The position numbers and the translations under genes are program-made. Below are positions 3,827 through 15,195 of a stretch of DNA of 41,109 nucleotides, piece after piece. Position 1 is the stretch's first letter; every line of letters begins with the position of its first letter. This stretch comes from Sulfuricurvum sp. (lineage in GTDB: Bacteria > Campylobacterota > Campylobacteria > Campylobacterales > Sulfurimonadaceae). Under the pieces are notes generated by a model, which ran no database searches, was not told the origin of the DNA, and saw only the letters and a list, made by a program, of their open reading frames with translations. Location of the stretch: positions 1 through 41,109 of the forward strand of contig NZ_JAQTYM010000017.1 of NCBI RefSeq assembly GCF_028688295.1. The letters are read 5' to 3'.

Positions 3827-5779
3827 TTATTCGTCAATGACTATTTTTTTACTTGATGGTGTCTCTTTGGGTGCTTCTACTTTTGTTTCAATATTATTTT
3901 CAACTTCAAAAGCTTGAATTATCTCACGAACCTGATTACCACTGATATTCTCTTTTGCATACAAAAGTTCGACGATTTTTTCGATAGCATCACGATATTC
4001 TTCCAATCGCTCTTTGACCGCAATATAACGTTCAGCCAAAGTGGATTTAATGAACTCATCCATCTGTTCAGCCATTTTTTCACTGTACTCTTTTGCCTGA
4101 GTCATACCGCCGCCCAAGAAAGTACTGCGTTGACGTTCTAGTACCATTAGACCTGCGACATCACTCATACCATACATTTGTACCATCGCTTTGAGAATAT
4201 CGGTTGTTCGTTCCAAATCATTGGCTGCGCCGGTAGAAATTTCACCGATAAAGACCTCTTCTGCTGCACGTCCTCCGAGCAATACATCGATTTCAGCGAT
4301 TAATTCATGACGTTGCATCAAATATTTATTCTCTTCAGGGGTATTGAGTGTATAGCCTAATGCTGCCAGTCCACGAGGGACAATAGAAACTTTGGAAACT
4401 TTTTTAGCGCCCTTAGTTGTCTCTGCTAATAATGCATGTCCACTCTCATGATACGCCACGATTCGCTTCTCTTTTTCATCAATACGACGACTCTTTTTCG
4501 ACAATCCGGCAATAGCACGTTCTACCGCTTCACGCATATCAGCTTGACGTACAGTTTTTTGGCTTTTGCGACCTGCAAGTAATGCCGCTTCATTAATAAT
4601 GTTGGCTAAATCTGCTCCGGCAAGACCTGCAGTAAGACGCGCAATCTCTTCAAGATCAACATCTGCATCTTGCTTCACCCCTTTAGCATGAACATTAAGA
4701 ATGTCAATACGCCCTTGGAAATCGGGTTTATCGACCAATACTTGACGGTCAAATCGTCCCGGACGAAGAAGTGCAGGATCGAGAATTTCAGGACGGTTAG
4801 TCGCTGCTAAAATGATGATCGGAGTATCGGTTCCAAAACCGTCCATCTCGGCGAGGAGTTGATTGAGGGTTTGTTCACGCTCATCATTTCCCCCCATCAT
4901 CCCGCCTGCTGCACGGCTTTTACCGATTGCATCGATCTCATCGATAAAGATGATTGAAGGGGCATCTTTTTTTGCTTGCTCAAATAAATCACGAACACGT
5001 GCCGCACCGACACCGACAAACATTTCGATAAAACTCGATCCCGATACTGAGAAAAAGGGCACTTCTGCCTCTCCTGCAACGGCTTTTGCCAATAATGTTT
5101 TACCGGTACCAGGGCTACCGACGAGTAACACTCCTTTAGGAATTTTCGCCCCCAGTTCTACGTAACGATCCGGAGATTTTAAGAAGTCGACAATCTCTAA
5201 AACTTCTTCTTTAGCTTCTTGCGCACCGGCTACATCATCAAATTTCGTTTTCGGTTTTTCGGAATTAATCAGTTTTTTGGAATTTCCCATCCCCAAAATA
5301 CCGCCACCCATGCTTTTTTGCATACGACCTGCAAAAAACATCCAAATAGCAATAATAATTAAGAAAGGAAACAACCATCCAAACATTTCCGTAAACCAGT
5401 TACTCTCTGAAAAGCCGACATAGTTAATCCCTTTTTCATCCAATAACGGGATAAGTGTAGCATCGGGACCAACGATACGAGTGGTATAAGCCACTTTACC
5501 GGTTCCATCGTTTCCAACAGCACGTATGTAGGTTTGTCCGATAGAGACTTTTTCAACCTGTTTATCTTGGATAAGCTTTTTAAGATCAGCGTAACTGATC
5601 TCTTGGGTACGTGTCACATTTTGACCATTTATTTTACCGGTGAGCTCATTTTCATCCCCTATTACAGCTTTGAACAAAATAATAATAACGATTGAAAAAA
5701 TAGCAAAGGTAATTAAAGGATTTTTGTTAAAAAAATTACTGTTTTTATCCGGATTCGGATTCGATTCGTTTTTAGACAT
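3827..5779 (-). CDS. ftsH: ATP-dependent zinc metalloprotease FtsH
   Basis: This 650-residue membrane AAA+ protease degrades membrane and short-lived cytosolic proteins. Two membrane helices (about 21-40 and 133-151) flank a periplasmic domain. The Walker A is at 221-228 (GSPGTGKT), Walker B at about 276-282 (IIFIDEID), the pore loop MFVG at about 253-256, and the second region of homology ends in RPGRFD. The zinc site is HESGH at 444-448, with a downstream acidic ligand in the GAANDLE segment. All hallmark residues are present and the length is normal. The AAGGA ribosome-binding site lies inside the last codons of prmA, which suggests coupled expression. Confidence 0.98.
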
Positions 5780-5783
5780 AGAA

Positions 5784-6617
5784 TTAGTTTCCTTTTTGAG
5801 TAACGACCAGTGTCACCCATTCATTTTCGACGATACGTTCTGTTAATTCAAGCGTTTTGTAAGCGCGTAGAACTTTATCTTCATATTTATCCATTATCCC
5901 TGAGAGGATCAAAATGCCCCCTTCACGTAACCGTTTTTTAAGATCACTCGCAATAAAAACAAGGACATCAGCAACAATATTTGCGATGATCACATCATAC
6001 GTTTCATCACTCTCTTGAACGGGGCCTTCCCAGAGGCGTCGATAAGTAATCTGGTTTTGCTCTGCATTGGCAATTGCATTTTCTACCGAAAGGGGATCGG
6101 TATCACACGCATCGACCATAGCCCCTTTTTTAATTGCAGCAATCGCTAAAATCCCGCTGCCACATCCAACATCCATAACTTCATCGCCTGTTTTAACGTA
6201 TTTGGCTACAGCACGTAAACATGAAGCCGTAGTGGGATGATGCCCTGTTCCAAAAGCAAGAGCAGGATCGATGGCTATGTTTAACATCCCCTCACACGGT
6301 TTTTCCCATGTAGGATGAATGTAAAACGGCTCAATTTTAATCGGTGTTATCCCTTGTTGATACTGCGCAATCCAATCGTCATTTTTCTCTTTAGTAAGGG
6401 TCATATCAACATCAACAACCTCACCTAATGCACGTTGCAGTGCTTCGCTAAACTGCTCGATTCCCCACATAATGGTTTCGAGGTCCTCTTCACTACGAAT
6501 GATAAACCCCTCATCAATCTCTTCAAAACCGACAGGGATAGCATCAACTAAAAAATCGCTAAAAAGTTCTCTATGCGATGATGGCTTAACCACCAACATA
6601 TAATAGTAGTCTTGCAT
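5784..6617 (-). CDS. prmA: Ribosomal protein L11 methyltransferase
   Basis: This 277-residue SAM-dependent enzyme trimethylates ribosomal protein L11. The N-terminal L11-recognition domain (about 1-95) is followed by a Rossmann methyltransferase domain. That domain has AFGTGHHPTT just before motif I (DVGCGSGILAIA), and the NIVADVL motif typical of PrmA in place of NPPF. ATG 6617 shares one base with the stop of the upstream receiver gene, and the ftsH start follows after 4 nt. This is one tight operon. The ftsH-prmA-cheY order is a conserved Campylobacterota arrangement. Confidence 0.95.
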   Translation of the reverse strand: MQDYYYMLVVKPSSHRELFSDFLVDAIPVGFEEIDEGFIIRSEEDLETIMWGIEQFSEALQRALGEVVDVDMTLTKEKNDDWIAQYQQGITPIKIEPFYIHPTWEKPCEGMLNIAIDPALAFGTGHHPTTASCLRAVAKYVKTGDEVMDVGCGSGILAIAAIKKGAMVDACDTDPLSVENAIANAEQNQITYRRLWEGPVQESDETYDVIIANIVADVLVFIASDLKKRLREGGILILSGIMDKYEDKVLRAYKTLELTERIVENEWVTLVVTQKGN

Positions 6618-6991
6618 TAACCCTCAGTACCAAGTACGGCAGCAAGTTTTTCTTTTAAAACTTGAGGAGTGAACGGTTTAACAATGTAATTATTGACCCC
6701 TGCTTTAAGGGCAGTAATAACTTCTGCTTTCCCCCCTTCAGTCGTAACCATAATGATCGGAAGATCGCTAAAACGTGGGTCGGCACGCACTTGCTTAACC
6801 AATTCAAGTCCATTCATCTCCGGCATATTCCAGTCCGTAATCAACATTCCCATATCTGGATTAGCATCAAGAACACTCCATCCTTGCAATCCGTCTTCAC
6901 CCTCTAAAACATCTTCGTAACCAAGTCTAGAAAGAGTGTTTTTGATAATACGGCGCATTGTCGAGCTATCATCTACAACTAATAATTTCAA
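6617..6991 (-). CDS. cheY: CheY-type single-domain response regulator (TTG start)
   Basis: This is a stand-alone receiver of 124 residues from TTG 6991. An acidic pair D7/D8, phospho-acceptor D53 (LITDWNMP), T84 and K105 (YIVKPF) form the full phosphorylation set. There is no output domain, so it should act by binding a partner, classically the flagellar switch (FliM). The start is set by AAAGGA at 6998-7003, 6 nt before the TTG. The longer reading from TTG 7009 would bury that site and add six residues not found at CheY N-termini. The stop overlaps prmA by one base. Chemotaxis CheY is the best fit, given this genomic neighbourhood in relatives. Confidence 0.88.
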   Translation of the reverse strand: MKLLVVDDSSTMRRIIKNTLSRLGYEDVLEGEDGLQGWSVLDANPDMGMLITDWNMPEMNGLELVKQVRADPRFSDLPIIMVTTEGGKAEVITALKAGVNNYIVKPFTPQVLKEKLAAVLGTEG

Positions 6992-6997
6992 AGCAAA

Positions 6998-7003
6998 TCC
7001 TTT
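6998..7003 (-). promoter_or_regulatory. Ribosome-binding site deciding the cheY start
   Basis: The minus strand reads AAAGGA here, 6 nt before TTG 6991. It supports the shorter MKLLVVDD start over the TTG at 7009, which lies upstream of it. Confidence 0.7.
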
Positions 7004-7066
7004 TGTCAATTCTTATTGAGAGAGAATAAATATCCCAATGATAACCTATCCATCTTTGTGAGAAGT

Positions 7067-7765
7067 TTAAAGATATTTTTTGAGATCAATTTTTCCCTCA
7101 TAAAATGCTTTCCCAACGATTACACCGGAGACTTCTTGAGACAGTTGCAAGGCTTCGATATCACTTCCATCTTTAACACCGCCGCTTGCGATCGTTGGTA
7201 TTTTGGAGGCTCTGGCTATTTCAAGGGTAAATTCCACATTGACACCACTAAGAGTACCATCACGCCCTACGTCGGTACAAATAATAGCTTCCACACCCGC
7301 GTCTGCAAAAGCACGTGCCAAATCAGTCGCTCTCATGGAACTTACTTCGCCCCATCCCTCAACAGCAACGTATCCATCAATCGCATCAATGCCAACAACA
7401 ATAGGGTACTTTGCCGCCATTGATTTCACAAATTCAGGATCACGCAGAGCAATCGAACCTAAGATGAGACGATCTATCCCTAATTCCAAATAACGCTGAA
7501 TCGTCGCTTCATCACGAATACCGCCGCCAAGTTGGAGTTTAACATTACAATTTTCACGAATAGCCCGAATTTGTTCCAAATTTTTTGGCTCTCCTGCAAA
7601 CGCCCCGTTAAGATCCACTAAATGAACCCAAGTAGCACCCATCTCTTCAAATGTTTTAACCAATTCCCATGGAGTATCAGAGTAGATTTTAGCACTCTCC
7701 ATAAGTCCTTTAGTAAGACGGACTGCTTTGCCGTCTTTGAGATCGATCGCTGGAAAAATTGTCAT
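7067..7765 (-). CDS. hisA: Phosphoribosylformimino-5-aminoimidazole carboxamide ribotide isomerase
   Basis: This 232-residue (beta/alpha)8 enzyme catalyses the Amadori isomerisation that converts ProFAR to PRFAR in histidine synthesis. The catalytic D8 is in the N-terminal FPAIDLKDG motif. The second half-barrel has [13 protein letters not shown], and phosphate-binding glycines occur at LGGGIRD and ASGGVKD. The length is normal. AAAGGA lies 9 nt before ATG 7765. It is 13 nt downstream of hisH, whose product works at the next step. The gap to cheY (7010-7066 plus leader) shows no clear terminator. Confidence 0.96.
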
Positions 7766-7778
7766 AAAATAAAATCCT

Positions 7779-8390
7779 TTATAGGTTAATAAAATTTTTG
7801 AGAATATTCAAACCGTTTTGATGGCTTTTCTCTGGATGGGGCTGAATTCCCATAACATTTTCATGGGCTACTGCACTTGTAAAACGGTATCCGTAAACGG
7901 ACTCACCAATACTGTCTCTTTCATCTTGACACAGAGCATGATAGGAGTGGACGAAATAAAGATAATGGGCTTCATCGAGTCCCGCAAATAACGGGTGTTC
8001 CCGTGTAAACATCCGGTTCCATCCCATATGGGGAACTTTCAAAGGAGTCTTAAAACGGCTCGTATCAAACGCCACTACTCGCCCCTCTATCAATCCAAGC
8101 CCCTCAGATATTCCGAACTCTTCACTCGATTCAAACAGCAGCTGCATCCCCAAACAGATTCCGAGGAGATATTTTCCGCTCGCGGCATATTCACGTACCG
8201 CTTCATCCATACCCCGCTCTCTCAAATGCTCCATCGCATCTCCAAATGCACCGACTCCGGGGAGGATAATACGGTCATACGTTTTTAATTTTTCAGGATC
8301 AGACTCAACAATAACTTTTTCCCCTAAAAGATCAAATGCATTTTTGACACTGGCAAGATTGCCCATGTTATAATCGACAATTGCTATCAA
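7779..8390 (-). CDS. hisH: Imidazole glycerol phosphate synthase, glutaminase subunit
   Basis: This 203-residue class I glutamine amidotransferase supplies ammonia to HisF for IGP and AICAR formation. The catalytic triad is visible: C79 in LLGICLGMQ, and H185 and E187 in QPHPEKS. The start is a TTG at 8390 (M-I-A-I-V-D-Y-N), preceded by AGGAG at 7 nt. The TTGA overlaps the TGA of the upstream PDC gene, so translation is probably coupled. The HisF partner is not in this window. Confidence 0.96.
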
Positions 8391-9295
8391 CGGCGTTCTC
8401 CTAAATTCGTAAAACGGATATAAATCGCAAGTCCGACGAGAAGCATCGCTACCCCTGCGATTATGTAGATTGCATTTACAATCATGTGCGGCTCGGTCAT
8501 GGCAAATTTGAATACCAACATCAGCGCTTCTATCGAAAGGGCGATGATAATCGAACCTAAAAAGCGGACCATTGTTTTATGGATACTCGAAGCCGGATCA
8601 TTTTTAGGCCTGCCCAACACTTCCTCTTCAAAGAGTGTTTTCACCAAATCGAGTATTGCGAGTGATAACGTCAATAAAATCGTGGCTTCAAAAATATCTT
8701 TAATCTCAATTCGATCAACATGACCAAATCCATACGATAAAAATCCCTCGATACCTTTGACAAACAATAACAACGCAACCAAAGCAAGAACAACGGTAAA
8801 TCCTGCATACGCTAATCTAAAAAAGCGTCCTGCTGCTGATTCAAGTGCCATCGGATGGGCAATTTTCAATACCTCTGCCAACGGCATATCGATACACGCC
8901 ACATAAACGATTTCACCATGTTCGTCAAAAATCGGTTCTGATGCCGTAACAGTAAGTTCATCGTTTAACAACGATGGATAAGGATCGGTAATCGTACATC
9001 TTCGCTCATGCATAGCACGGTAATAATAGGCACGTGTTGAACGACTTTCACCGATATCTTCAGCTTTTTTTCCATTTTTTAAATAGGTAGGCGTGACTTG
9101 ATTCCCAGCAGCATCGAGAAGATACGCGGCTTCTAATCCCTTTAAATCTCCACGGATTTTAAGTAAACGGGCAGTTAGAGCTTCAATCGAAACGGAAGGG
9201 AGGTGATTGGGAAGATTTTTGTGAAACAAATAACAAAAATAGGCTCTTGCTTTTGGACGAATTTCTGCAAACTGCTGAATGTCTTGAATAACCAT
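8387..9295 (-). CDS. PDC/Cache-like sensor protein with four C-terminal membrane helices
   Basis: This 302-residue protein has an N-terminal PDC/Cache-like ligand-binding domain (about 45-145). Its signatures are AAYLLDAAGNQVT, an SRAYYYR-like stretch (STRAYYYRAM), and a final strand VYVACIDMPL. Four hydrophobic helices follow at about 161-179, 200-220, 243-263 and 271-293. No kinase, HAMP, GGDEF or methyl-accepting domain is present. No N-terminal membrane helix or signal peptide precedes the sensor, and an in-frame TAA just upstream excludes a longer start. This is unlike classic extracytoplasmic PDC domains. It is the first gene of the leftward his/cheY/ftsH run. Function is unknown beyond sensing. 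Confidence 0.75.
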   Translation of the reverse strand: MVIQDIQQFAEIRPKARAYFCYLFHKNLPNHLPSVSIEALTARLLKIRGDLKGLEAAYLLDAAGNQVTPTYLKNGKKAEDIGESRSTRAYYYRAMHERRCTITDPYPSLLNDELTVTASEPIFDEHGEIVYVACIDMPLAEVLKIAHPMALESAAGRFFRLAYAGFTVVLALVALLLFVKGIEGFLSYGFGHVDRIEIKDIFEATILLTLSLAILDLVKTLFEEEVLGRPKNDPASSIHKTMVRFLGSIIIALSIEALMLVFKFAMTEPHMIVNAIYIIAGVAMLLVGLAIYIRFTNLGERR

Positions 9296-9335: not shown

Positions 9336-9347
9336 ACTTAGTTGCGC

Positions 9348-11236: not shown

Positions 11237-11923
11237 TTATGCCGGATAAGCGGCTTTAAGTGCGTCGTACAACGCTTCAGGGGTCATATCGGGATTGGTT
11301 TCCCAAGCGCATTTCATCACGACATTATCTTCCAAACCGTTCCACAACTTAATGTAGCTTCCCTCTTTGTAGCCGTGATCTTGCCGGAACTGATTGAGGA
11401 TATTTTTACCGACATACAAACGGTAAAGCTCTGTCGTATTTAACGCTCCCAAATAGGCCAATTCAAAAAATTCCTCGATCAAGGCACCGACCATCTCCGC
11501 TGAGACAGGGATAAGGGAAAGACGCATAACGTTTTCGATTTTAGTCATTAAAAGCGGGTCACTGCCGAATTCAAGAGATGTCGCCGTATTTAATCGTTGA
11601 TATTCCGGAGTCTTTGACATCCGTTCCGCCAACTCTTTAATACTTTCTGCTCCATTGTTATGGGTAAACTCTAGAAGCAAACTCATCACAAAATGCCACA
11701 CATCGACAATCTCGATCTGAAGGTTGGCATAATCGGTCGGCTGTGCAATACTTTTCCAGTGTTTCCATCCGAACGAATCGATCATTTCGGCCGATTCCAT
11801 CGTAATACAACGACGCCAATTGATCGATTTTCCCTCTTTCGTTACCCCTTTTTCCCAACCTAATCCGTTGGTTGCATCATTCAATTTTTGTTGCAGTTCT
11901 ACCATACAGAGCAATTTATTCAT
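11237..11923 (-). CDS. dut: Dimeric dUTP diphosphatase (all-alpha type)
   Basis: This 228-residue all-alpha NTP pyrophosphatase hydrolyses dUTP (and typically dUDP) to dUMP, keeping uracil out of DNA. The magnesium-binding helices carry an E-x2-E followed by E-x2-D (MESAEMIDSFGW and IEIVDVWHF), as in the C. jejuni/trypanosomal dimeric dUTPases. It is not the trimeric Dut fold. The start is set by AAAAGGA about 5 nt before ATG 11923. The in-frame TTG 15 nt upstream would precede that site. A TATAAT lies about 23 nt upstream of the ATG. Confidence 0.92.
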   Translation of the reverse strand: MNKLLCMVELQQKLNDATNGLGWEKGVTKEGKSINWRRCITMESAEMIDSFGWKHWKSIAQPTDYANLQIEIVDVWHFVMSLLLEFTHNNGAESIKELAERMSKTPEYQRLNTATSLEFGSDPLLMTKIENVMRLSLIPVSAEMVGALIEEFFELAYLGALNTTELYRLYVGKNILNQFRQDHGYKEGSYIKLWNGLEDNVVMKCAWETNPDMTPEALYDALKAAYPA

Positions 11924-11946
11924 ATCTATCCTTTTCAATCTTTGAA

Positions 11947-12145: not shown

Positions 12146-12530
12146 CCTTTTTACCGAACCCCAAAGTGTTATCGGTCATTTTGACCTCATCGAGCCGTAT
12201 CATCCATAATGTCGGATTCATCACGCGTGCGTAAGGGAACGCATCGAAATAAAGGCTTTTTAACTCATCGGAGCATTTCTCCATTTCCCCTGCAAACTGT
12301 ATCCCCTGAATTTTTCCCACCGTTTTAGTCTCCAGTGCGACCGTTCCTGCGACATGAATATTTTGCGCCACATTCCTCATATGTTCGGTTGTCTCGTCGG
12401 AAGCAACAATAAATGAAACACTCTTCGGGGCATACGCATAAAACATCGAACAGCACCACAACCGCTCTCCCATTGTTGCCAGAGAGAGGAGATGATGCTC
12501 ACCGATGAAGTGTTCTATTTTTTCAATCAT
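12123..12530 (-). CDS. UPF0306 (YhbP-like) split-barrel protein
   Basis: This 135-residue protein of the pyridoxamine-5'-phosphate-oxidase-like split-barrel superfamily resembles E. coli YhbP (UPF0306). Both share an N-terminal LWCCSMFY-like strand, the central IQGIQFAGEME block (YhbP: RGVQFKGEI), and the closing DEVKMTDNTLGFGKK segment, which is nearly identical in YhbP. The superfamily binds FMN, F420 or haem; the ligand of UPF0306 is not established. AAGG lies 6 nt before ATG 12530, and the ATG overlaps the TGA of the upstream PLP-lyase gene by 8 nt. It is therefore the last gene of a coupled three-gene set. The 3' end overlaps the small + strand gene. Confidence 0.85.
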   Translation of the reverse strand: MIEKIEHFIGEHHLLSLATMGERLWCCSMFYAYAPKSVSFIVASDETTEHMRNVAQNIHVAGTVALETKTVGKIQGIQFAGEMEKCSDELKSLYFDAFPYARVMNPTLWMIRLDEVKMTDNTLGFGKKVTWKREF

Positions 12531-13686
12531 TTAAAGCCTTATCTAACCGATCCAACGCATCACTAAGCACCGATGTCGGTACCGCGAAATTGAGCCGCAT
12601 AAACCCGCTTCCCTCTTTACCGAAACTAAGCCCCGGGCTGAGTCCAAGCCCCGCTTTGTGGATAAAAAATTCCCGCAGCTCCCGATCCCCTAATCCAAGC
12701 TCTCGGCAATCAAGCCATCCCAAATAGGTCGCTTCAGGAGGGCGGAATTTAATCGTAGGGTGTTCTGACACCCACGCTTCGATGAGGCTGGCATTAACCC
12801 TTAGATGCTCTAATAGTTTTTGATGCCACTCTCCCCCCTCACGATAAGCGCTTTCAAACGCCACATGAGACAATACCGCGCCATCTCCGAAATGGACGCG
12901 GTGAGCCTCTTGTTCATAAAGCTTTCGTACTTCATCTGAAGCGATACAAACGGTAGAAATCGAGAATCCCGCCATATTAAACGTTTTCCCCGGTCCTATC
13001 AGGGTGATCGTATTATGCAAAAGTGCTTCAGAGAGTGACGCAATAGGGACATGTTGGTGCGGTGCAAAAACGATATCGGAGTGAATTTCATCACTGATGA
13101 TACGAATACCGTGTTCCAGACACAATGTTCCCACTGCGAGAAGCTCATCATGGCTCCATACCCGCCCGATCGGGTTATGAGGCGAGCAGAGTAATAACAG
13201 TTTGGTTTTCGGGGTAATTTGCGCACGTAGACGCTCGATATCAAAACGGTAAACTCCTGCGCTATCTTGTTTCAATGGATGGAGAAGAAGAGAGCGGTTA
13301 TTATCTTTTACCATACTATAAAACGGAGGATAAACAGGATCCATCACAATCACTTCATCACCCGCTTCACTGAATGCACGGATCGCACATCCGATCGAAG
13401 CGACCACGGAGGGGGAGTAACTGAGCCATTCACGCTTTATCGTAAATCCGTGATGTTCTCTCATCCAAGTGATCTGAGCTTCATAAGCGCTATCGCTCAT
13501 GATCTCATATCCTAGTATCGGATGGAGAAGTCGCTTTTGAACCGCGTAAATAACACATTCTGGGGTTGCGACGTCCATATCGGCGACCCACATCGGCTGA
13601 ACCTCTTCGGTATGAAAAAGCTTTTCTCTCAGCGTATATTTTTCAGCATTAGAACTACTGCGGTCAATAAAACGAAACTCATCCAT
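12523..13686 (-). CDS. patB: PLP-dependent C-S lyase, MalY/PatB family (candidate OvoB role)
   Basis: This is a 387-residue fold-type I PLP enzyme. The PLP lysine is K234 in GPGKTFNMAG, with SDEIHSDI (D199) and SPHNPIG (N171) completing the cofactor site. The family cleaves C-S bonds of cystathionine and other S-substituted cysteines. The gene directly follows, and overlaps by 8 nt, an OvoA-type sulfoxide synthase. I infer that it may cleave the histidyl-cysteine sulfoxide, as OvoB does in ovothiol synthesis. The ATG at 13686 is preceded by GGAG at 8 nt. The longer upstream reading would overlap the preceding gene extensively. An ordinary cystathionine beta-lyase role remains possible. Confidence 0.88.
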   Translation of the reverse strand: MDEFRFIDRSSSNAEKYTLREKLFHTEEVQPMWVADMDVATPECVIYAVQKRLLHPILGYEIMSDSAYEAQITWMREHHGFTIKREWLSYSPSVVASIGCAIRAFSEAGDEVIVMDPVYPPFYSMVKDNNRSLLLHPLKQDSAGVYRFDIERLRAQITPKTKLLLLCSPHNPIGRVWSHDELLAVGTLCLEHGIRIISDEIHSDIVFAPHQHVPIASLSEALLHNTITLIGPGKTFNMAGFSISTVCIASDEVRKLYEQEAHRVHFGDGAVLSHVAFESAYREGGEWHQKLLEHLRVNASLIEAWVSEHPTIKFRPPEATYLGWLDCRELGLGDRELREFFIHKAGLGLSPGLSFGKEGSGFMRLNFAVPTSVLSDALDRLDKALND

Positions 13687-15097
13687 ACCGTTTACTCCAT
13701 CGTTCATGCATTTGAACGATAGTAGCGTATTTATCCCTCTCGTTTGCGCCCTCACCGATCACGTATCGAAATCCGGCATGCTGGATAAAATGGCGACGGA
13801 AGGCATATCGGGACTCACGCATAATTTCATTACCTGTAGATATCCACGATCCCCCTTTGATGAGATTATGTCTTCCATCAAATGTAGGCTCTGAAAAATC
13901 GTCATACCATGGATGGGTGATAAAACCCTCAAATCCATCCATCTGTGTTTGGGTCCATTGCCACACATTCCCCACTACATCATACAGCTCACCGTGCGCA
14001 AACATATCTACAGGAACAGAGGAAGCTGCGTGGGCAAGATTGATGTTAGCACGCTCATCATCAAATACCGCTCCATCCATACCGCCCGCTTCTGCCATTA
14101 CTCTCCATTCCGCTTCGCTCGGGAGACGATAAGTTTCCCCCTCTTGAGCACTCTTCCAACGACAGAAGGCTTCGGCTTCGAGAGCATTTACTTCAACGGG
14201 CCAGTTATAAGGCATATCGATCTCATCCGTTAATGAGCGATATTTATAACTCCCATCTTCTTGCAAAATCCAAAACGGCGGACAAGTCGCTTTACGGATT
14301 TGAAGATAACGAAGCCCCTCATCATCCCACCATCGGCTCACGCCGTATCCATTTGCCGCTACGAAGTCCATAAACTCGCCGTTACTTACTAGATATTTAG
14401 AGGTCTGGAACTCCTCTACATGTACCTCTGCACTGCCGTATTCATTATCCCACCCATACAGCCCTTGATCCTCACTACCTTTACCCAGTGTCACATTTGA
14501 TGCGCTAAAATAGACCATACTGTTTTCAGGTGCATCTCCTCGAATCGGACAAATCGGAAAATCGGCATGGTCTCGGATAGACGCTAATGGCATCTGACGG
14601 TGCAATACACTCGATGTCTCGATATGAATACGCTCATGCTCGATCCCCATCCAAATCGCCCAAAATGGATCTTCACTCGTAATAGGGAGTTTCATCGGGA
14701 GGGTTGTGATCATCTCATCCACGAGAGCTCTAACTTTTTGACGGTATGCTCTTACCTCATCGACACTCGGCCATCTCAGTGAATCACTCGAAGCATCCCA
14801 TGTCATTTCATCGACACCCACGGCAAAAAGCTCTTCAAAATGGGGATTTAGTCGCTCTTTTAGCGCACCGGATGCTATTAGTTTATTAACATAAAAAATC
14901 GCCGTATGCCCGAAATAGAAGATCATCGGATGGCGTGTTGGTTCGGATTGAGAATAATAAACCTCATCCGATATCAAAAGTTCAAACAAAGATTCAAAGA
15001 GATCAAAACTCTGATGAAAATAAGCGCTCAGTTCTTCTCTTTTGAGGGCGCCATCTTCTCCGTCCAATCGTACCGATACCATCTGTCTTTGTAGCAC
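13679..15097 (-). CDS. ovoA: OvoA-type 5-histidylcysteine sulfoxide synthase lacking the methyltransferase domain
   Basis: This 472-residue protein (from GTG 15097) has the architecture of the OvoA N-terminal enzyme, a non-haem iron sulfoxide synthase joining cysteine to histidine. The DinB-like N-domain has FYFGHTAIFYVNK (H64). The iron motif H-x3-H-x-E is at 154-160 (HERIHIE). The FGE-sulfatase-like domain runs from about 195 to 446 and ends KGGSWISTGNE...RRHF..HAGFRY, an OvoA hallmark rather than EgtB. Standard OvoA continues for roughly 240 residues of methyltransferase; here it stops about 25 residues later. GTG 15097 is preferred because AAGGA lies 7 nt upstream and a TACAAT -10 lies further up. 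The frame remains open to 15160. Confidence 0.85.
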   Translation of the reverse strand: MLQRQMVSVRLDGEDGALKREELSAYFHQSFDLFESLFELLISDEVYYSQSEPTRHPMIFYFGHTAIFYVNKLIASGALKERLNPHFEELFAVGVDEMTWDASSDSLRWPSVDEVRAYRQKVRALVDEMITTLPMKLPITSEDPFWAIWMGIEHERIHIETSSVLHRQMPLASIRDHADFPICPIRGDAPENSMVYFSASNVTLGKGSEDQGLYGWDNEYGSAEVHVEEFQTSKYLVSNGEFMDFVAANGYGVSRWWDDEGLRYLQIRKATCPPFWILQEDGSYKYRSLTDEIDMPYNWPVEVNALEAEAFCRWKSAQEGETYRLPSEAEWRVMAEAGGMDGAVFDDERANINLAHAASSVPVDMFAHGELYDVVGNVWQWTQTQMDGFEGFITHPWYDDFSEPTFDGRHNLIKGGSWISTGNEIMRESRYAFRRHFIQHAGFRYVIGEGANERDKYATIVQMHERWSKRYG

Positions 15098-15104
15098 AAC
15101 ATCG

Positions 15105-15109
15105 TCCTT
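15105..15109 (-). promoter_or_regulatory. Ribosome-binding site deciding the ovoA-like GTG start
   Basis: The minus strand reads AAGGA, 7 nt before GTG 15097. The codons upstream of it (to 15160) include the likely -10 hexamer, so they are probably untranslated. Confidence 0.6.
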
Positions 15110-15123
15110 ATCACATTTTGGGT

Positions 15124-15129
15124 ATTGTA
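15124..15129 (-). promoter_or_regulatory. Putative -10 element for the ovoA-like operon
   Basis: The minus strand reads TACAAT, ending about 26 nt before the GTG start. No clear -35 is seen. It sits in the 149-nt divergent region shared with the M29-like gene. Confidence 0.45.
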
Positions 15130-15195
15130 GCAAATTTGATGCTAAAAAAGAGGTTCTCACACAAGCGCATTCAGCCCTAACCAGTTGGATTTCGC

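Follow-up and report, generated by a model that had tools for sequence, protein, structure and literature searches.

The window analysed here is the whole stretch of 41,109 nucleotides of contig NZ_JAQTYM010000017.1 (assembly GCF_028688295.1) of a Sulfuricurvum sp., and its reverse strand carries a run of six genes headed by a reading frame for a 302-residue protein of the PDC/Cache type (Table 1). The start of this frame is fixed, because the nearest in-frame upstream stop, a TAA at 9338-9340, lies 14 codons before the ATG and no ATG, GTG or TTG occurs between the two, with further stops beyond; an earlier, sequence-only reading of the same DNA had held that this stop bars an N-terminal extension, and rightly so. 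The gene is real and conserved: a match, orthologue or paralogue, is present in 56 of 60 related genomes, and the orthologue alignment finds a match at E <= 1e-40 in 223 of 298 genomes of the class that are at least 95% complete. No relative was found on viral contigs. Elsewhere on the reverse strand of the window, at 12523-15160, a 5-histidylcysteine sulfoxide synthase (TIGR04344, 637.7 bits, cut-off 400) is followed in an overlapping frame by a PatB-family C-S lyase (TIGR04350, 543.6 bits, cut-off 340), a pair that we take to be of the ovothiol-synthesis type, and a dUTPase of epsilonproteobacterial type lies at 11237-11938 (243.5 bits, under the curated cut-off of 300).

Table 1. Coordinates in the window of the target gene, its parts and its downstream neighbours.
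Feature	Position	Strand	Remarks
PDC/Cache and four-helix membrane protein, apparent PglG-family orthologue	8387..9295	-	302 aa, ATG start
Residues 2-150, PDC/Cache domain, cytoplasmic by prediction	8846..9292	-	
Residues 151-302, four-helix membrane domain	8390..8845	-	
TM1 core, residues 161-181	8753..8815	-	boundaries chosen by us from hydropathy and model
TM2 core, residues 202-222	8630..8692	-	holds D216 and K219
TM3 core, residues 244-264	8504..8566	-	holds E256 and K263
TM4 core, residues 274-294	8414..8476	-	
R88 codon	9032..9034	-	aligned to the residue altered in KinD R131A entries
D136 codon	8888..8890	-	counterpart of the end Asp in Tlp3 and PctC; KinD has Gln here
TTGA, four-base overlap	8387..8390	-	stop TGA of target gene, TTG start of hisH
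hisH	7779..8390	-	TIGR01855 equivalog
hisA	7067..7765	-	TIGR00007 equivalog
cheY-like response regulator	6617..7009	-	
prmA-like gene	5784..6617	-	synteny marker; name presumed
ftsH-like gene	3827..5779	-	synteny marker; name presumed

Residues 4 to about 150 of the protein have a PDC/Cache fold. By itself the protein matches the Pfam families dCache_1 (6.4e-7) and MCP-like_PDC_1 (PF22673, 7.7e-6), both under their curated cut-offs (29.6 against 45 bits and 26.7 against 27 bits), and the Campylobacter-like orthologue at locus L148 clears that of PF22673 with 34.9 bits. A profile of 28 orthologues finds the solved sensor domain of KinD of Bacillus subtilis (PDB 4jgo/4jgp) with an E-value of 2.5e-9, and PctA and Tlp3 with values near 1e-4. 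In an AlphaFold2 model built from 27 sequences (pLDDT 82), residues 2-146 follow the order H-H-E-E-E-H-E-E-H, with four long helices afterwards. Model residues 4-150 resemble the solved domains of KinD, WalK, YkuI and amino-acid chemoreceptors, and KinD, the best match by structure as by profile, aligns over 138 residues at 3.6 A with a Z of 15.2. The sequence-only reading would have been refuted had residues 45-145 proved not to be a PDC fold, and the outcome favours it. The model is used for its domain folds, since the full-length pTM of 0.52 makes the relative placement of the two halves unreliable. Likewise borne out is the claim that an output domain is missing: neither Pfam nor NCBIfam scans recognised a signalling output domain in the 302-residue protein. 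The sensor domain of KinD is extracellular, lies between two helices and has a kinase as output; such flanking helices and kinase are absent here. The C-terminal domain of YkuI (PDB 2bas) also has a Cache-like fold (Z 13.7 to the model), in a soluble protein that carries an EAL domain, which the same scans did not find in the 302-residue protein. Direct YkuI_C hits in two of 27 members (best 6.5e-4) were dropped as evidence, although they agree with the fold.

Among the extracellular sensors of prokaryotes, Cache domains are described as the main kind: 78% of them are confidently predicted to lie outside, and their first helix, a long one, is an extension of the first membrane helix; two small families are given as mainly inside, nearly all families as having members with known output domains, and YkuI_C is named as principally intracellular, a precedent for an intracellular Cache domain (all from the available portion of PMC4822843). 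The predicted arrangement of the present protein departs from the usual setting, outside the cytoplasm and between two transmembrane helices. Across 65 sequences (49 orthologues, the window protein included, and 16 paralogues), no 19-residue stretch within residues 1-150 exceeds a Kyte-Doolittle value of 1.62, the highest usually falling on the last strands near residue 128, whereas the maxima of the four segments that come later range from about 1.5 to 3.1. Fifteen of these sequences had been trimmed to a start matching that of the window protein, and in the trimmed extensions (up to 256 residues of mechanically called reading frame) together with the first 30 residues hydropathy does not rise above 1.55. 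Homologues with a conserved N-terminal helix would have told against the sequence-only reading; none of those examined had one, and among the matches listed those to the orthologue alignment begin at model position 1-3. With loop boundaries chosen by us, lysine and arginine average 7.10 on the side of the N-terminus against 1.76 on the opposite side, which predicts an N-in topology in 41 of 42 sequences, the remaining one being a tie.

The Cache domain therefore apparently faces the cytoplasm, with no helix before it and four after it, the latter agreed upon by hydropathy and model alike. On these predictions the earlier suggestion of a cytoplasm-facing sensor that acts through its membrane part is supported. 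That the domain is instead exported in the N-out orientation customary for its superfamily, without a cleaved signal, has in its favour the high proportion of extracytoplasmic members just cited (PMC4822843, available portion); we regard it as very improbable here, given that neither a signal nor a helix precedes the domain and that the charge bias runs almost uniformly the other way.

What such a domain would bind is suggested by its pocket. Residues were counted in 125 orthologues and 34 paralogues, identical sequences once, many of them from Sulfuricurvum and Sulfurimonas. Position 88 is arginine or lysine in 124 of the orthologues and all of the paralogues, and position 136 is aspartate in 123 and 33, respectively. 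R88 stands where KinD has R131, the residue exchanged in the entries labelled R131A, and a complex with pyruvate is named in the title of one KinD entry. D136 corresponds to the end aspartate of Tlp3 and of PctC, where KinD has glutamine. PMC10104139, as far as its text was available, describes R126 of PctA as touching the carboxylate of the ligand and names D173 as a key residue, and by sequence alignment these two positions of the dCache_1AA motif are kept as R88 and D136. However, the amino-acid motif is incomplete in the family. The position of W128 is occupied by Y90 (tyrosine in 122 of 125 orthologues), as is likewise the case in Tlp2 according to the accessible text of PMC9769880, and in the same alignment the middle aspartate of the pocket (Tlp3 D169) is replaced by S108 (serine in 119 of 125). 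In our judgement the ligand probably bears a carboxylate, but to call the protein a standard amino-acid sensor would go beyond what the pocket residues suggest. Two cysteines of this domain, which is expected in the cytoplasm, are also typical of the orthologues: C100 (8996-8998, reverse strand) is kept in 123 of 125 and C134 (8894-8896, reverse strand) in 120 of 125, each being present in a single one of the 34 paralogues; for this pair a redox or metal role was considered.

The membrane half is the better conserved of the two. In a selection of 24 orthologues and 14 paralogues, identity among orthologues is 51.8% in the membrane half against 42.7% in the sensor, and between orthologues and paralogues 34.3% against 17.2%. 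Among 35 positions inspected, F202, T209, A213, D216, F245, A252, E256 and K263 are invariant in 159 of 159 sequences, and position 219 is lysine in 156 of them. At least one copy of the family is present in 51 of 61 Campylobacterota genomes sampled, and the 60 matches to the membrane domain listed for that sample come from reading frames of 279-431 codons, a length with room for the sensor as well.

Outside the phylum the membrane domain occurs both with the sensor and by itself, a spread visible only through plasmid records, because the scan of genome contigs took 80 of 536 relatives. Acidithiobacillus caldus WP_004867800, labelled 'PDC sensor domain-containing protein', has the same architecture, with a Cache domain from residue 42 onwards that passes the dCache_1 cut-off (45.9 against 45 bits), the membrane domain in common (137.9 bits) and no further domain preceding these two parts; its gene is on a plasmid, in another phylum, and a hypothetical gene and a transposase gene separate it from glnL-ntrC nearby. 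By contrast, Thiodictyon WP_100922665, a free-standing protein of 167 residues (68.4 bits), and relatives on six other plasmid records lack a sensor domain. The Burkholderiales relatives, on plasmids of Cupriavidus, Paraburkholderia and a Comamonadaceae strain, are like it annotated as 'hypothetical protein' of 166-167 residues, and four of the six score 53.5-73.7 bits against the family profile. A plasmid search with the paralogue of the amtB-linked type found nothing. The Thiodictyon protein (L225:5902-6402, forward strand, plasmid NZ_CP020371.1) keeps E256, K263 and the EEEV motif and differs at F202, T209 and A213; D216 and K219 are both glutamine, so in this one sequence they may have changed together as a pair.

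Because the membrane domain is the better conserved half and also occurs alone, we read it as a module with a function of its own and the sensor as its regulator. No relative of known structure was recognised: a Foldseek search of the domain against the PDB returned no match at E <= 0.001 (best 0.21), and since no known membrane fold was recognised, a passive anchor with a soluble partner is also possible. The best VIA-align matches, to SNX1-SNX5 at a Z of 11.0, are to generic helical bundles and are uninformative, no proof of a new fold. Comparison of residues 148-302 with UPF0114 and PsiE, from small alignments, gave hhalign probabilities of 6.9% and 0.4%, against 0.2-0.7% for controls (four unrelated multi-helix families) and 100% for the family itself. 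The value for UPF0114 exceeds those of the controls, but a likeness to UPF0114 seen by eye is not claimed, because the alignment covers 29 columns and pairs the last helix of the family with another. Set aside were hits of DUF4870, DUF2975, FliQ, PsiE and SLATT on the membrane part (one or two of 27 members each), of Gram_pos_anchor (six of 27, best 0.082) and of BchF (three of 27, best 1.6e-4).

The gene had been described as heading a his operon to which it is coupled by a TGA/TTG overlap. The overlap is confirmed, and hisH and hisA do follow directly, but these are the only his genes there, and cheY comes next, ahead of the prmA-like and ftsH-like genes. A survey of homologues beside hisH upheld the adjacency in part. 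In 77 of 80 named loci hisH is the next gene, within 100 bases, the three exceptions being a contig end (L086) and two loci with other neighbours (L102 and L124), but among 19 loci from 17 other families it is next in 12 and not in seven. The adjacency is also absent from the Campylobacter-like and Helicobacter-like loci read. This order has been retained in part of the phylum, and a link to histidine is not general. This bears on the proposal that the sensor detects histidine, glutamine or some metabolite akin to them and that it adjusts the synthesis of histidine by way of its translational coupling to hisH. The shared four bases, the frequency of the adjacency and the nature of HisH as a glutamine amidotransferase all speak for it; it is nonetheless improbable, as the orthologue is kept, with no hisH next to it, in the Campylobacter-like and Helicobacter-like loci and in the seven others, and no his genes were seen by eye beside the paralogues in the loci read.

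A second neighbourhood points to the identity of the family. In a genus (g29) that we take on gene order to be Campylobacter, the orthologue has a PglF-like gene before it and cheY-prmA-ftsH after it in all nine loci (L148-L156). Typing by Pfam covered the pgl genes of L148 and confirmed them, with three domains in the case of PglB. The reading frames encode 297-310 residues with 45-48% identity to the window protein (eight shown). At least seven other genomes of the genus, among those listed, are without a match at 1e-40, and two of these (G077 and G105) have none at 1e-20. This is the place of pglG in Campylobacter, directly after the pglF-like gene and ahead of cheY-prmA-ftsH. We take Campylobacter PglG to be Cj1119c. 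From gene order, that identification and the available part of PMC11389370, the target protein appears to belong to the PglG family of Campylobacter. An orthologue in a Helicobacter-like genome, beside a shikimate kinase gene, is presumably HP0158, as supported by gene order and by the accessible text of PMC4280198. Within the literature searched, from which subscription papers were mostly excluded, we found PglG nowhere described as a Cache protein.

Unlike Campylobacter pglG, the window gene sits before hisH-hisA, and the PglB of its genome is on another contig. Other arrangements exist: L039 has, in one run, pglB-A-C-D-E-F, the orthologue and hisH-hisA-cheY-prmA-ftsH; in L036, PglF and PglB precede the orthologue and hisH-hisA; in L157, PglB does so; and L158 has pgl genes and hisA, with hisH gone. 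Since L039 holds the pgl run, the gene and the hisH run together, pglG seems to be a long-standing neighbour of hisH, and we infer that its older neighbourhood was hisH-hisA-cheY-prmA-ftsH rather than the pgl locus. In the simplest history the pgl genes would have been placed next to a run that was already there, and hisH-hisA would later have left that run in the Campylobacter-like genus.

The name PglG implies a part in protein N-glycosylation. The gene closes the pgl run in every Campylobacter-like locus read, PglB lies beside it in L036 and L157 too, and HP0158 of H. pylori is annotated from sequence as 'N-linked glycosylation' (PMC4280198, accessible text). Against this, pglG has no known function, and its mutation left reactivity with the lectin soybean agglutinin unchanged, according to the available part of PMC11389370, which cites Kelly 2006. 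The distribution of the gene argues in the same direction: it is present in 17 of 20 PglB-less genomes listed (19 further PglB-less genomes exist) and is missing at E <= 1e-40 from at least 15 genomes with PglB, among those listed (55 further genomes lack the gene). We consider a role in glycosylation extremely improbable.

The paralogues offer a different lead. The genome of the window itself has three of the same architecture (L055:5883-6749, forward; L055:13218-14120, reverse; L056:5827-6708, forward). We read 32 paralogue loci, 13 outside the window's own family and 19 inside it; neighbours other than nitrogen genes were judged by eye. A nitrogen gene adjoins six of the 13, in four of seven families, and none of the 19. 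In L061, L062, L214 and L215 amtB is directly upstream, preceded by glnB in L061, L062 and L215; in L211 amtB is divergent from the paralogue, and in L165 glnA is directly upstream. Nine of these nitrogen genes were confirmed by Pfam, the amtB of L215 having been read by eye. The paralogues may report nitrogen status, but the adjacency is a lead rather than a test, because the class of genes was chosen after the first cases had been seen. In family f16, a gene set (ATPase-like fragment, PAS-like, exonuclease-like, as judged by eye) recurs after the amtB-linked paralogue at L214:3945-4625, L215:4415-5095 and L061:5382-6044, all on the reverse strand.

The amtB and glnA neighbours also speak for a mechanism in which the membrane domain is a scaffold that binds another membrane protein and the cytoplasmic Cache domain switches the contact. 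In some paralogue loci the partner would perhaps be the ammonium transporter encoded next door (amtB in families f16 and f13, divergent in one f9 genome, with a paralogue after glnA in one f6 genome), and the protein itself has four helices and no transporter fold that we could find. We regard this as unlikely, though as the most serious of the alternatives. A constant partner is not apparent, the orthologue lying beside hisH, a pglF-like gene or aroK and, by eye, hemA and others, and the lone membrane domain on plasmids has no constant neighbour in the four regions read.

The interpretation that we favour, with some reserve, is that of an inside-out Cache sensor for a metabolite, with its own membrane domain as the means of action and with ligand and output both putative. 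The N-terminal Cache domain would bind a small carboxylate metabolite in the cytoplasm, an amino acid or a keto or other organic acid, by way of R88, nearby aromatic residues and D136. Binding would alter the linker helix of residues 139-150, which runs into TM1, and this change would shift the state of the four-helix membrane domain. The latter would be the output, either moving a solute or ion or binding a membrane partner, with D216, K219, E256 and K263 as charges within its helices, and the sensor half would be an exchangeable regulator. A wider proposition, which we offer tentatively and would sooner expect to fail than to hold, is that there is a new, inside-out and metabolite-gated class of membrane protein, in which a widespread four-helix effector, free-standing in some Pseudomonadota, gained a cytoplasmic Cache gate; the orphan pglG would be among its members, having been named after neighbours with which it did not start.

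What emerges is apparently a gene family already known, though so far without an explanation, which can now be viewed as a cytoplasm-facing Cache domain on a conserved membrane module. If this is true, a Cache fold on the inside, with no preceding helix and a membrane module as its output, would widen both the uses of the fold and its ways of signalling, and PglG would gain a function that can be tested and that lies outside glycosylation, in the phylum to which Campylobacter and Helicobacter belong.
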